Origin: Oscillibacter sp.
GTDB taxonomy: Bacteria > Bacillota > Clostridia > Oscillospirales > Oscillospiraceae
DNA: 53,114 bases
Reading direction: 5' to 3'
NCBI GenBank assembly: GCA_017482345.1
Contig: JAFUNB010000023.1
Location: 1 to 53,114 of the forward strand
Position numbers and translations under genes: made by a program. Below the pieces are notes generated by a model. That model had not been told where the DNA came from. It ran no database searches and saw only the letters and a program-made list of their open reading frames with translations. Every line of letters starts with the position of its first letter. Positions within the stretch are counted from its first letter, which is position 1. Positions 14,238-19,017 of this stretch are shown here, one piece after another.

Positions 14238-14909
14238 ATGAAAACCATCAGCATCGCCATTGACGGCCCCTCCGGTGCAGGTAAGAGCACCCTGGCCCGG
14301 AGCATCGCTGCCAAGTTGGAATATTTATATGTGGACACCGGCGCCATCTACCGCACCATCGGCCTGTATGCGCTGGAGCATGGTGTTGACCCCAAGGACG
14401 AGGCTGCCGTTACCGCCTGCCTGCCCGACATTCAGGTGGGTCTGGAGTACGGCGACGACGGCCTGCAGCACATGCTGCTCAACGGCCGTGACGTGACCAA
14501 GGAGATCCGTCTGCCGGACGTGTCTCTCTACGCCTCCGCCGTGTCTGCCCATCCGCCCGTGCGTGCCTTCCTGCTGGAGATGCAGCGGAAGCTGGCCCGG
14601 GAAAACAACGTCATCATGGACGGCCGTGACATCGGCACCGTGGTGCTGCCGGACGCGGACGTGAAGGTGTTCCTCACCGCCAGCGCTCCCGAACGTGCCC
14701 GCCGCCGCTGTCTGGAGCTGGAGCAGCGGGGTACCCCTCAGCCCTTTGAGAAGGTTCTGGCGGAGATCGAGGAGCGGGATTACAATGACTCCCACCGTGC
14801 CACGGCCCCTCTGCGTCAGGCGGAGGACGCCGTTTTGCTGGATACCACGGAGCTGGACTTCGCCCAGAGCGAGGCAGCCATGATGAAGCTGATCGGAGAG
14901 CGCGTATGA
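14238..14909 (+). CDS. cmk: Cytidylate kinase
   Basis: Phosphorylates CMP and dCMP with ATP in pyrimidine nucleotide synthesis. The 223-residue protein begins MKTISIAIDGPSGAGKSTLAR, whose GPSGAGKST is the P-loop. The CMP-binding residues lie in YVDTGAIYRTIGLYAL, and the inserted NMP-binding domain is family-typical. VIMDGRDIGTVVLPDADVKVFLTASAPERARRR is the diagnostic core. The gene follows the flavoprotein by 14 bases and overlaps plsC by 4 bases (ATGA), giving the common Clostridial order cmk-plsC-ispH/rpsA. Confidence 0.96.
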   Translation: MKTISIAIDGPSGAGKSTLARSIAAKLEYLYVDTGAIYRTIGLYALEHGVDPKDEAAVTACLPDIQVGLEYGDDGLQHMLLNGRDVTKEIRLPDVSLYASAVSAHPPVRAFLLEMQRKLARENNVIMDGRDIGTVVLPDADVKVFLTASAPERARRRCLELEQRGTPQPFEKVLAEIEERDYNDSHRATAPLRQAEDAVLLDTTELDFAQSEAAMMKLIGERV

Positions 14910-15496
14910 ACAAGTTTCATTGGATCGTCCGGGCGGTGCTCCGCCCGGTGCTGCACCCGTTCCTGCCGCTGGAGGTGAAGGGCGTGGAGAATCTGCCCCG
15001 TGAGGGCGCCATGATCTGCCCCAATCACTGCAGCAACTGGGATCCGATCTTTGTGTTTATCTCCATGCCCAAGGATTATAATGTCCGCACCATGGCCAAA
15101 GAGTCCCTGTTCCACGTTCCCGTGCTGGGCTGGGTCGTTAAAAAGCTGGGCGGCTTCCCGGTGGCCCGGGGCGATTCTGACATCCAGGCCATCAAGACCG
15201 CTATCCAGACCCTGAAAAACGGCGAAAATCTGATGCTGTTCCCCGAAGGCAAGCGGGTGAAGGCGGAGGGTGAGGTGGCCGCCAAGGGCGGCGCCGCCAT
15301 GATCGCCATTCGCACCGGCGCCACACTGGTGCCTGTGTATGTGGAGCAGGAGAAACGGCTGTTCCACCGCCACCGCGTCATCTTCGGCGAGCCCTACAAG
15401 CCCACCTTCACCGGCCGCAGAGGCACCTCAGAAGAGGTGCAGGCCATTGCGGACGATCTGCTCCGCCGGGCCTATGACTTAGGCAGGGAGGGATGA
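14906..15496 (+). CDS. plsC: 1-acyl-sn-glycerol-3-phosphate acyltransferase
   Basis: Acylates lysophosphatidate at position 2 to give phosphatidate, the second acyl transfer in phospholipid synthesis, at the inner membrane face. It is 196 residues, short but normal for Clostridial PlsC. The acyltransferase block HX4D is NHCSNWDPIFVFISMP, and the later LMLFPEGKRV is the FPEG block that binds the glycerol phosphate. Hydrophobic stretches near the N-terminus could anchor it. It overlaps cmk by 4 bases and precedes ispH by 3 bases, so it is within a tight operon. Confidence 0.92.
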   Translation: MNKFHWIVRAVLRPVLHPFLPLEVKGVENLPREGAMICPNHCSNWDPIFVFISMPKDYNVRTMAKESLFHVPVLGWVVKKLGGFPVARGDSDIQAIKTAIQTLKNGENLMLFPEGKRVKAEGEVAAKGGAAMIAIRTGATLVPVYVEQEKRLFHRHRVIFGEPYKPTFTGRRGTSEEVQAIADDLLRRAYDLGREG

Positions 15497-15499
15497 CGG

Positions 15500-17452
15500 A
15501 TGTCCAATGTGATCCTGGCTGAGAGCGCCGGCTTCTGCTACGGCGTGAAGCGTGCCGTGGAGCTGGCTCAGAAGACGGCGGGGGAGTGCGACCACTGCTG
15601 GATGCTGGGCGACCTCATTCACAATACCCATGTGGTGGAGGATCTGGCCAGCCGGGGTATCCGCAAGACGGAAGATCCCGCCGCGCTGAAGGCAGGGGAC
15701 ACGGTGGTCATCCGCTCCCACGGCGAGCTGAAGAGCGTGCTGGACAGTCTGGCGGAGCAGAGCGTCAACTGCGTCAACGCCACCTGTCCCAACGTCATGC
15801 GCATTCAAAAATTGGTGGCTGAAGCAGAGCAGGAGGGACGTCAGGCGGTTATCATCGGTGAGCCGCACCATCCGGAAGTGGTGGGTGTGGCCAGCTGGTG
15901 CCGCAATGCGCTGATTTTCGACGGCCCTGACGCAGTACAGATGTGGCTTGACGAAGATCCGAAAAACCGCGAAATCCCTGTGACCGTGGTATCTCAGACC
16001 ACCTGCATCAGAAAACTTTTTGAAACTTCTTGGAAAATTCTAAAAAAAGAGTGTACAAACGTAAAAATATTTGATACAATATGCCTTGCTACGCATAAGC
16101 GTCAAACGGAAGCGGCGGAAATCGCCGGGAAAGTTGACGTGATGGTTGTGGTGGGAGACCGTAAGAGTGCCAACACAAAACATTTGACGGAAATTTGCAT
16201 GAAGAGATGCCCCCACGTGCTTCAGATCGAAAGCGCGGACGAGCTCTCGCCGGACGTTTTCACCGAATGCTCTGTTGCTGGTCTCACGGGCGGCGCCTCC
16301 ACACCAGCTGGCATTATTAAGGAGGTATATGCAACGATGAGCGAAGAAATCAAAGTGGCCGAGGGCATGGAGTCCTTCGAGGAATTACTGAATCAGTCTT
16401 TTAAAACTTTAAATACAGGAGAGAAGGTCACCGGTACCGTTCTGGCCATCAACCCCACTGAGGTTCTGGTCGATGTTGGTGCTAAGCAGTATGCTTACAT
16501 CAAGATGAGCGAACTGACCGACGACCCCACTGCTAAGCCCGAGGACATCGTGAAGGTCGGCGACGAGATCGAGACCTACATCGTCCGCGTCAACGACGTT
16601 GAGGGTTATGCTGAGCTGTCCAAGAAGCGTCTGGATGCTGTCAAGGTTTGGGAGAACATCGAGACTGCTGTTGAAGAGAAGACCGTGCTGGAAGGCACTG
16701 TCACCGAGGAGAACAAGGGCGGTATCGTGGTGTCCGTTAAGGGCGTCCGCGTGTTCGTTCCCGCTTCTCAGAGCGGTATGCCCCGCGGCGCTGACCTGTC
16801 CGAGATGAAGGGCCAGAAGGTTCAGCTGCGCATCACCGAGGTTAACCGTGCCCGCCGCCGTGTTGTCGGCTCCATCCGCTCTGTCGCTGACGAGGCTCGC
16901 AAGGCCGCTCAGGAGGCAGTTTGGGGCAGCATCGAGGTCGGCAAGCACTACACCGGCACTGTGAAGTCCATGACTTCCTACGGTGTGTTCGTTGACATCG
17001 GCGGCGTTGACGGCATGGTACATATTTCCGAGCTGTCCTGGAGCCGCATCAAGACTCCCGCTGAGGTCTGCAAGGTTGGCGACACCCTGGATGTGTACGT
17101 CATCTCCTTCGACGCTGAGAAGCGCAAGATCTCTCTGGGCTGCAAGGATCATGCTACCAATCCCTGGGAGATGTTCCTGAACCAGTACAGCGTTGGCGAC
17201 GTGGCCTCTGTCCGCATCGTCAAGCTGATGACCTTCGGCGCTTTCGCTGAGGTCGTCCCCGGTGTTGACGGTCTGATCCACATCTCTCAGATCGCTGACC
17301 GCCGCATCGAGAAGCCCGAGGACGTTCTGTCCGAGGGTCAGGTCGTTGAGGCCAAGATCACTGCTGTCGACGAGGAGAAGAAGAAGATCTCCCTGTCCAT
17401 CCGTGCTCTGCTGGCTCCCGCTGCTGAGGAAGTCGTCGAGGACGCTGAGTAA
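15500..17452 (+). CDS. ispH-rpsA: Fusion of IspH (HMBPP reductase) and ribosomal protein S1
   Basis: One 650-residue frame. Residues 1-278 are IspH, the last enzyme of the MEP isoprenoid pathway, with the three [4Fe-4S] cysteines C13, C96 and C195, EPHHPEVVG (Glu126) and late SANT and STPAG substrate residues. Residues about 280-650 are S1 with four OB-fold repeats near 297-365, 383-450, 463-530 and 545-620. The fusion is known in Clostridia. Codon choice changes sharply at the junction: the IspH part is ordinary, the S1 part matches rpsB and tsf. An internal promoter-like element and a strong internal ribosome site before Met280 suggest that S1 is also made alone. The S1 set is shorter than the six repeats of Proteobacteria, as in other Firmicutes. 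Confidence 0.95.
   Translation: MSNVILAESAGFCYGVKRAVELAQKTAGECDHCWMLGDLIHNTHVVEDLASRGIRKTEDPAALKAGDTVVIRSHGELKSVLDSLAEQSVNCVNATCPNVMRIQKLVAEAEQEGRQAVIIGEPHHPEVVGVASWCRNALIFDGPDAVQMWLDEDPKNREIPVTVVSQTTCIRKLFETSWKILKKECTNVKIFDTICLATHKRQTEAAEIAGKVDVMVVVGDRKSANTKHLTEICMKRCPHVLQIESADELSPDVFTECSVAGLTGGASTPAGIIKEVYATMSEEIKVAEGMESFEELLNQSFKTLNTGEKVTGTVLAINPTEVLVDVGAKQYAYIKMSELTDDPTAKPEDIVKVGDEIETYIVRVNDVEGYAELSKKRLDAVKVWENIETAVEEKTVLEGTVTEENKGGIVVSVKGVRVFVPASQSGMPRGADLSEMKGQKVQLRITEVNRARRRVVGSIRSVADEARKAAQEAVWGSIEVGKHYTGTVKSMTSYGVFVDIGGVDGMVHISELSWSRIKTPAEVCKVGDTLDVYVISFDAEKRKISLGCKDHATNPWEMFLNQYSVGDVASVRIVKLMTFGAFAEVVPGVDGLIHISQIADRRIEKPEDVLSEGQVVEAKITAVDEEKKKISLSIRALLAPAAEEVVEDAE
16052..16080 (+). 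promoter_or_regulatory. Candidate internal promoter inside ispH driving the S1 part
   Basis: TGTACA and TACAAT are separated by 17 bases in a markedly AT-rich stretch (about 16010-16090) inside an otherwise GC-rich gene. It lies about 255 bases upstream of the internal start at 16337. Confidence 0.5.
16319..16339 (+). other. Internal ribosome-binding site and start for free S1
   Basis: AAGGAGG (16319-16325) is followed 11 bases later by an in-frame ATG (16337, Met280), exactly at the IspH/S1 boundary. Initiation here would give a 371-residue four-repeat S1. The site is also coding for the linker residues Lys-Glu-Val. Confidence 0.6.
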
Positions 17453-17466
17453 TCAAACAGCCAATC

Positions 17467-17499
17467 AGAGACAGGTCCGAAAGGGCCTGTCTCTTTTTT
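17467..17499 (+). terminator. Terminator of the cmk-plsC-ispH-rpsA operon
   Basis: AGAGACAGGTCC / GGGCCTGTCTCT stem closed by a GAAA tetraloop and followed by a T-run. Confidence 0.92.
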
Positions 17500-17586
17500 G
17501 TCCGCTGCGGTTCGGGCAGACGGGGGAGGAGACAGATGAGGGATTCTCTTTACGTAAAAGTTTTGTGATTTTTTTCACGTTTTCCG

Positions 17587-17615
17587 TTGCATTGGTGAAG
17601 CATGTGTGTTATACT
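17587..17615 (+). promoter_or_regulatory. Sigma-A-type promoter of the butyryl-CoA transferase gene
   Basis: TTGCAT and TATACT are separated by 17 bases and leave a leader of about 55 bases. TGTGTTAT overlapping the -10 (17605-17612) recurs as its complement ATAACACA at 17646-17653, in the leader. Confidence 0.72.
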
Positions 17616-17676
17616 CTTGACAAAGTGCGAAATAATGAATTTTAGATAACACATACAACAACTAGGAGGAAGTTTC

Positions 17677-19017
17677 ATGAACTATCAGGAAATGTATCAG
17701 CAGAAGCTCACCACCGCAGAAGAGGCTGTCAAGGTCGTCAAGTCCGGTGACTGGGTGGACTATGGCTGGTGCGGCAACCATCCCATCGCTCTGGATAAGG
17801 CTCTGGCCGCCCGCAAGGACGAGCTGTACGACGTGAAGCTGCGCGGCGGCGTCACCATGTGGATGCCCGAGGTCTGCAAGGCTCCCGACGCGGCTGACCA
17901 CTTCACCTGGCATTCCTGGCACTGCACCGGCGTTGACCGTAAGATCATCGGCTCCGGCGTCGGCTATTTCAGCCCCATGCGCTATTCCGAGCTGAACCGT
18001 TTCTATCGTGAGAACGTCACCGTTGACGTGGCTATGATCCAGGTCACTCCCATGGACGCCCACGGCAACTTCAACTTCGCTCTGAACGCCTCTCACCTGG
18101 GCGATATGCTGGACACCGCCAAGCACATCATCGTCGAGGTCAACGAGAACATGCCTTGGGTCTATGGCCTGACCGGCACCGAGATCAACATCAAGGACGT
18201 TGACGCTGTTGTTCTGGGTGACAACCCCGCTCTGGCTCAGCTGGCCGGCGGCGGCGCTCCCACCGATGTGGACATCGCTGTTGCCAACCTGGTCGTGCCC
18301 GAGATCCCCAACGGCGCCTGCCTGCAGCTGGGTATCGGCGGCATGCCCAACACCATCGGCTCCATGATCGCTCAGTCCGATCTGAAGGATCTGTCTGTTC
18401 ATACCGAGATGTATGTGGACGGCTTCGTGGATATGGCTCTGGCCGGCAAGATCACCGGTAAGTACAAGAACGTGGATAAGGGCCGCCAGGTCTACGCCTT
18501 CGCAGCCGGCACCCAGAAGCTGTACGACTATATCAACCGCAACCCCGACGTCATGGCCGCTCCCGTTGAGTACACCAACGATGTCCGTGTCATCGCCGAG
18601 ATCGACAACTTCATCTCCATCAACAACGCCGTCAACATGGACCTGTTCGGCCAGGTCAACGCCGAGTCCGCCGGCATCAAGCACATCTCCGGTACCGGCG
18701 GCCAGCTGGACTTCTGCATGGGCGCCTACCTGTCCAAGGGCGGCAAGAGCTTCATCTGCATGTCCTCTGCCATGACCGACAAGAACGGCAACCTGCAGAG
18801 CCGCATCGTTCCCACCCTGAGCAACGGCTCCATCGTCACCGATCCCCGCTCCTGCGCTCACTATATCGTCACCGAGTACGGTATGGTGAACCTGAAGGGT
18901 CTGTCCACCTGGGAGCGCACCGCTCAGCTGATCGAGATCGCTCATCCCCAGTTCCGCGAGCAGCTGATCGCCGACGCCGAGAAGATGCACATCTGGCGTC
19001 GTTCCAACAAGAGATAA
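17677..19017 (+). CDS. but: Butyryl-CoA:acetate CoA-transferase
   Basis: Moves CoA from butyryl-CoA to acetate, releasing butyrate: the last step of butyrate fermentation in many gut Clostridia. The 446-residue protein belongs to the acetyl-CoA hydrolase/transferase family. It has [20 protein letters not shown]-type features, [30 protein letters not shown] (Glu244 is the likely catalytic residue by analogy with 4-hydroxybutyrate CoA-transferase), GQVNAES and [20 protein letters not shown]. Codon bias is as strong as in ribosomal genes, so high expression is expected. It is monocistronic, with a good AGGAGG site. A related 4-hydroxybutyrate or acetate-specific transferase cannot be fully excluded. 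Confidence 0.85.

Follow-up and report, generated by a model that had tools for sequence, protein, structure and literature searches.

Background

In Escherichia coli, rpsA is located downstream of cmk as a separate gene, not joined to ispH, and has its own promoters near or inside the upstream coding sequence. The locus described here resembles this arrangement in that its S1 gene lies 3' of cmk, but differs in that S1 is fused to IspH. It is the same fusion, with the same domain order, as the IspH-RPS1 'Rosetta stone' fusion, for which no other ispH or rps1 gene was found in the fusion-bearing organisms and which has been discussed as evidence linking IspH to the ribosome (Rao et al. 2015, PMC4746011). 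The Clostridium thermocellum fusion expressed in E. coli had IspH activity in vitro (PMC4746011), and in a Fusobacterium gel study the bifunctional protein is listed as a spot, in an entry giving no size (PMC5348791). The main text of Rao et al. treats the fusion as one polypeptide and uses none of the terms internal, promoter, Shine or start codon (PMC4746011), whereas the gene analysed here adds a predicted internal promoter and a predicted internal start.

In Salmonella spaO, one frame is likewise described as encoding a long protein and a short C-terminal one; the internal start of the short form is conserved in relatives and can be GTG (PMC13059759). Unlike in spaO, the short product here would be a complete, otherwise separate protein, S1; the Shine-Dalgarno (SD) sequence is near-perfect, and the family also has a predicted internal promoter. 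In a search of the open-licence literature we did not find a proposal of a two-product ispH-rpsA gene. Comparison with related loci suggests that this gene, whose annotation shows one fusion protein, probably has two products.

Organization of the fusion locus

We analyzed a stretch of 53,114 nucleotides from an Oscillibacter sp. contig, referred to as the window, in which the fusion gene and its neighbours are arranged as follows:

14238-14909, + strand: cmk, first upstream gene of the putative operon (TIGR00017, above its cut-off)
14906-15496, + strand: plsC-like acyltransferase gene, second upstream gene of the putative operon (TIGR00530, 91.7 bits, under the cut-off of 102.95)
15500-17452, + strand: IspH-S1 fusion frame, 650 aa (NF000907, 711.2 bits; PF02401 and four S1 stretches)
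17467-17494, + strand: terminator-like hairpin 3' of the fusion gene; presumably the shared end of long and short transcripts

The score of the whole protein exceeds the curated cut-off of 624 for NF000907 (bifunctional IspH/S1), which makes it a member of this family. Seven relatives turned up in the named collection, Oscillibacter valericigenes and Dysosmobacter included, with best segments that are 81-90% identical, which presumably places the window in this part of the Oscillospiraceae. In the organism's own genome (72% complete), apart from the fusion gene, only a 69-residue S1-like stretch matches the fusion. Genomes of one family of the class (f110: G567, G593, G617, G639, G661, G679) encode the fusion plus, at another place, a frame of 378-422 aa with a further S1-like match. 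A PF02401 search of 25 genomes of the class or phylum gave no IspH match in 10, small genomes of 0.8-1.1 Mb among these. The gene that follows the fusion gene (17677-19017) encodes a butyryl-CoA:acetate CoA-transferase (TIGR03948, 765 bits, cut-off 675), and the host organism is therefore probably a butyrate producer.

For comparison, 101 loci (window included) were sampled from the family, in which all 400 genomes had a match; 100 of them are fused, and one (L090) is cut by a contig end. They comprise the 30 best-scoring loci, 40 from further down the list, 30 that looked unfused and 1 further locus, none of them chosen by motif. Left out were L002, which is not IspH, and L090, whose IspH is truncated at the contig end; L091 was left out of the codon alignments, and L038 (G122), with one in-frame TGA, was kept in the family set.

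Sites inside the fusion frame

Four promoter features and two translation features lie within the frame (codon frequencies are observed versus expected):

16042-16048, + strand: A-tract 5' of the -35 box, retained in relatives (K182 AAA 1.00 versus 0.57)
16052-16057, + strand: -35 box TGTACA, 4/6 to TTGACA (T186 ACA 0.99 versus 0.25, family loci)
16072-16080, + strand: extended -10 TGATACAAT (T193 ACA 1.00 versus 0.25; I194 ATA 0.99 versus 0.22)
16086-16093, + strand: predicted transcript start region, placed by its distance from the -10 box; GCTACG at 16088-16093 is conserved
16319-16326, + strand: internal SD AAGGAGGT in the Lys-Glu-Val codons of the IspH end (GGAGG and an in-frame start in 191/191 fused loci)
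16337-17452, + strand: predicted free S1, start ATG and frame of 371 aa (conserved start, weak RNA structure, ribosomal-protein-like codons)

The original prediction described an AT-rich island with TGTACA-N17-TACAAT inside the frame, and an AAGGAGG 11 nt before an in-frame ATG exactly at the IspH/S1 border. Both are present: the GC content is 0.31 at 16000-16099 compared with 0.55-0.67 in the intervals from 15450 to 15999, TACAAT (16075-16080, 5/6 to TATAAT) is preceded by the TG of an extended -10 (16072-16073) and separated by a 17 nt spacer from TGTACA, and AAGGAGG at 16319-16325 is followed by ATG at 16337-16339, the 3' end of AAGGAGGT being located 10 nt upstream of this ATG. Judged within the window alone, promoter and SD sites barely exceed chance. 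AAGGAGG-N4-12-ATG occurs four times (expectation 1.27), a count attained by 6 of 100 shuffles; there are seven promoter-like sites in 8 kb (the internal promoter and six others) versus 2.6 expected (sd 1.8), and three occurrences of the spaced promoter motif with at most two mismatches versus 0.64 expected, of which the internal promoter is the only exact one. What places the sites far above chance is their conservation at synonymous positions.

Conservation of the predicted internal ribosome site

In the 191 fused loci GGAGG leads to ATG at 11 nt (183 loci), ATG at 8 nt (6), GTG at 11 nt (1, L116, the sole locus with GTG in place of ATG) or TTG at 11 nt (1, probably L165, where ATG is present at 8 nt as well). 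When simply the first start is taken, two loci show GTG or TTG at 5 nt. Two loci with the border peptides IIKEVNQTM (L079) and IIKEVKQTM (L091) are among the 191. Our definition of an internal-start two-product gene, an in-frame start with a ribosome site conserved in relatives, thus describes 191 of 191 fused loci, and codon constraint is found at the same place. By comparison, among IspH genes without a joined S1, GGAGG occurs at the equivalent place in 1 of 13 readable genes (L239), and those that retain Glu-Val mostly use GAA for Glu; this control of 15 genes, from which L248 and L250 were excluded since the right motif was not read, is small because the Glu-Val pair itself is lost in 7 of the 13.

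In five loci (L131, L135, L136, L212, L213), which belong to families f3 and f29, ispH and rpsA are unfused and overlap out of frame, and S1 starts 10-11 nt past an AGGAG at the end of ispH, with GTG in L135 and L136 and ATG in L131, L212 and L213. In two others (L132, L133) ispH stops before S1, and CAAGAAGTT or CAGGAAGTC, without GGAGG, is found at that place. Since f3 also holds a fused locus (L217), the fused or unfused state changes within a family. The fusion frame is kept in most loci read, and not one of the 573 spacer codons of the 191 fused loci is a stop, with 265 of them one change away from one. The fusion is likely also made and useful; we go no further than this because the IspH end may need the spacer codons and because two families have parted the genes.

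An out-of-frame minigene between SD and S1 start (ATG CAA CGA TGA, 16329-16340) was discarded as a candidate, being absent from many relatives.

Synonymous-codon constraint

A blind scan asked, for each alignment column and amino acid, how often the commonest codon was used relative to its overall use within that half of the genes; it comprised 1122 tests for the family (99 loci, window included), 674 for the other families of the class (43 loci) and 709 for other classes (47 loci). As kinship among the loci means that neither the scan trials nor the locus counts are independent, the ranking of a column against all other columns served as control. For the family, the top three columns (I194, T193 and T186, with the frequencies listed above) all lie in the promoter boxes, and rank four is A197 GCT, at the expected transcript start, where the codons of GCTACG are A197 GCT (0.77 versus 0.13 expected) and T198 ACG (0.83 versus 0.30). 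In the other families of the class the top two columns are those of the SD (E275 GAG 1.00 versus 0.36 and K274 AAG 1.00 versus 0.31), followed by I194 ATA at rank three (0.86 versus 0.34). The SD also takes the top two ranks in other classes (E275 GAG 1.00 versus 0.39 and E274 GAG 1.00 versus 0.41), for which no promoter columns were found among the 20 top-listed. Early S1 codons are A-rich, for example E283 GAA (0.93 versus 0.29 expected).

Several further high-ranked columns fall outside a two-product explanation (S223, T95, V364), foremost S1 residues 303-307 (16406-16420), with the constrained rare codons ACT TTA AAT ACA GGA (observed 0.50-0.92 versus 0.06-0.33 expected in the family). These constrained codons track the S1 domain, not the start codon.

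The predicted internal promoter across relatives

T[GA]TACA-N17-TACAAT is found in 98 of 99 family loci, with exact TGTACA in 90, and the promoter block of the family reads approximately AAAAAA-nnn-TGTACA-AAY-NNN-RAA-NNN-TTTGATACAATATGY. Third-position AT in the 99 aligned IspH halves is 0.17-0.28 over most of codons 1-130, rises to 0.84 at residues 186-195 and then drops. A housekeeping-sigma promoter was defined by -35 and -10 boxes at a spacing of 16-18 nt with a score above a codon-preserving null; the best score in the family was 11.01 versus 8.57 (sd 1.15) for the null. All seven relatives from the named collection carry both promoter and ribosome site.

Beyond the family the promoter is less widespread. 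Of 43 loci from other families of the class, 28 have their best promoter at the same position; the -10 box stays, while the -35 box is often TTGCAA, TTGCCA or TTGTAA with a spacer of 18 nt, and the score over all 43 loci shows a modest excess (10.84 versus 9.75, sd 0.89). The best site of five loci (L194, L195, L198, L202, L208) scores well and is located elsewhere in ispH, which is perhaps turnover. In the 48 loci of other classes that keep the fusion, we found no promoter excess (8.68 versus 8.77 for the null).

Loss of the SD and the AT-rich island from relatives that keep the fusion, which the original prediction had named as evidence against it, was thus not seen for the SD, retained in 191/191 fused loci, and was seen in part for the promoter, retained in the family and in 28/43 loci of the class, with no excess in other classes. 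This argues for an internal start that is general and a promoter that is limited to certain lineages. Because the ribosome site is general among the sampled fused loci and the promoter narrower, the promoter was probably a later addition, and free S1 in classes without it would require the long transcript.

Matches to the same promoter type elsewhere in the organism's own genome (4 further ones, some preceding open reading frames, and 0 in a reversed-pattern control) are too few to use.

RNA structure around the predicted internal start

The RNA at the internal ATG is less structured than that of synonymous shuffles, with mean z of +0.92 in the family (98 loci), +0.87 in the class outside the family (43 loci) and +0.73 in other classes (48 loci); the mean z at 177 other ATGs of family loci is -0.58.

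We also considered a conserved structure in the leader RNA and rejected it: RNAalifold, applied to 35 family sequences, yielded -3.5 kcal/mol, compared with -1.3 (sd 0.3) in synonymous nulls, but the structure has no more than eight pairs, and five of these form a weak CCUCC-GGAGG pairing over the SD. With so few pairs a feedback element is not claimed. The CCUCC derives from the codons of IspH G-A-S-T-P and could pair weakly with the internal GGAGG (16295-16325), too weakly for a switch. Both Rfam matches in 15400-17700 are far under their gathering scores.

Codon usage of the two halves

A shift in codon bias from ordinary to ribosomal-protein-like was predicted to coincide with the border. 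The shift itself was found, with a codon score of 0.26 for the S1 half and a mean of 0.23 for ribosomal proteins (20 ORFs), compared with -0.39 for the IspH half and a background mean of -0.37 (67 genes). Its position differs from the prediction: the change is best placed at codon 308 (16421), some 28 codons past the ATG, near the border but not exactly at it. Codon tables were taken from G355, a closed genome of the same genus, since a search of the organism's own incomplete genome for ribosomal protein L16 found none; the fusion gene of G355 itself scores 0.18 in the S1 half and -0.43 in the IspH half. Relative to 50 genes of the window the S1 half is at the 94th percentile and the IspH half at the 8th, percentiles that are rough because the 20 ribosomal-protein ORFs were identified by their sequence and operon order and the background genes by a simple criterion of amino-acid composition. 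The AT-rich block itself pulls the IspH score down. Codon usage is the basis on which we infer that free S1 would be much more abundant than the fusion.

A probable two-product gene and its alternatives

Comparison of the loci shows promoter boxes, ribosome site, start codon and weak RNA structure to be conserved beyond the needs of the protein. In our judgement the frame probably contains two expression units, one for the IspH-S1 fusion and one for a free S1 of 371 aa. The comparison supports the two-product reading of the original prediction, as regards the start in every sampled fused locus and as regards the promoter within the family and in some other members of its class. Translation of a long transcript, probably originating in a cmk-plsC-ispH operon, would begin at 15500 and give the fusion. 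A shorter transcript would begin at about 16088 under the control of a housekeeping-sigma promoter (-35 box, 16052; extended -10, 16072-16080) and carry a leader of some 249 nt. Ribosomes would start at ATG 16337 on either transcript, guided by the SD in the last IspH codons, and produce free S1. We infer that RNA polymerase and ribosomes use these sites, that free S1 is the major form of S1 and that the fusion is also made; such an arrangement would let one frame encode both an enzyme made at low level and a ribosomal protein made at high level.

If only the full-length fusion were made, the promoter- and SD-like strings would be by-products of the IspH peptides F-D-T-I-C and K-E-V. The residues concerned are indeed conserved in IspH and the sites in the window alone little exceed chance, but the codons are fixed as well (ACA and ATA at 0.99-1.00 versus 0.22-0.25; GAG at 1.00 versus 0.36-0.39 outside the family) and unfused IspH genes with Glu-Val mostly use GAA, so that we regard this as very improbable. 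There is equally little to recommend an embedded SD that slows down elongation between the domains to aid folding and starts nothing: it does sit precisely at the domain border, but a start codon always follows 8 or 11 nt past it, the RNA around this codon is weakly structured, S1 of the unfused loci begins from the same site, and an upstream promoter is needless for pausing. A regulator-binding site or an antisense promoter in place of a forward promoter would agree with the palindromic TGTACA and with three minus-strand promoter-like matches at 16037-16105. Two conserved boxes with a variable spacer, the conserved extended -10, the conserved stretch at the expected forward start and the TTG-type -35 boxes of other families nevertheless make it unlikely.

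A stronger alternative, which we consider possible though somewhat doubtful, accepts both products and takes the fusion as a functionless read-through by-product, kept by the fixed distance between SD and start. An in-frame spacing of 8 or 11 nt suffices to hold the frame, and in f3 and f29 the parted genes of the five unfused loci mark the fusion as dispensable there. The lack of stops among the spacer codons speaks against it, weakly, as the IspH end may need those codons. A broader picture can be sketched, tentatively: across much of a phylum the main S1 would come from the internal start, a minor retained fusion would put an iron-sulfur isoprenoid enzyme on some ribosomes, and the supply of S1 would be coupled to the synthesis of IspH by ribosomes passing over the embedded start.

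Should most S1 be free, what the IspH-S1 fusion does would have to be reconsidered, S1 annotation would miss one product in a large group of gut anaerobes, and IspH proteomics, knock-outs and inhibitor work in these organisms would need to allow for a second product. The gene would also provide a clear example from nature of coding sequence that carries a ribosome site and, less widely, a promoter across long evolution.

Linkers between IspH and S1

Genomes first taken as unfused controls turned out to be fused, with longer linkers, wherever IspH was readable. The linker from the border Met to the first S1 domain has 37-133 residues in L072-L089 and L092-L100, many of these linkers being Glu/Ala-rich, and 18-26 residues in other family loci (18 each in L101 and L102). 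In the long-linker loci SD and start remain at the IspH end.
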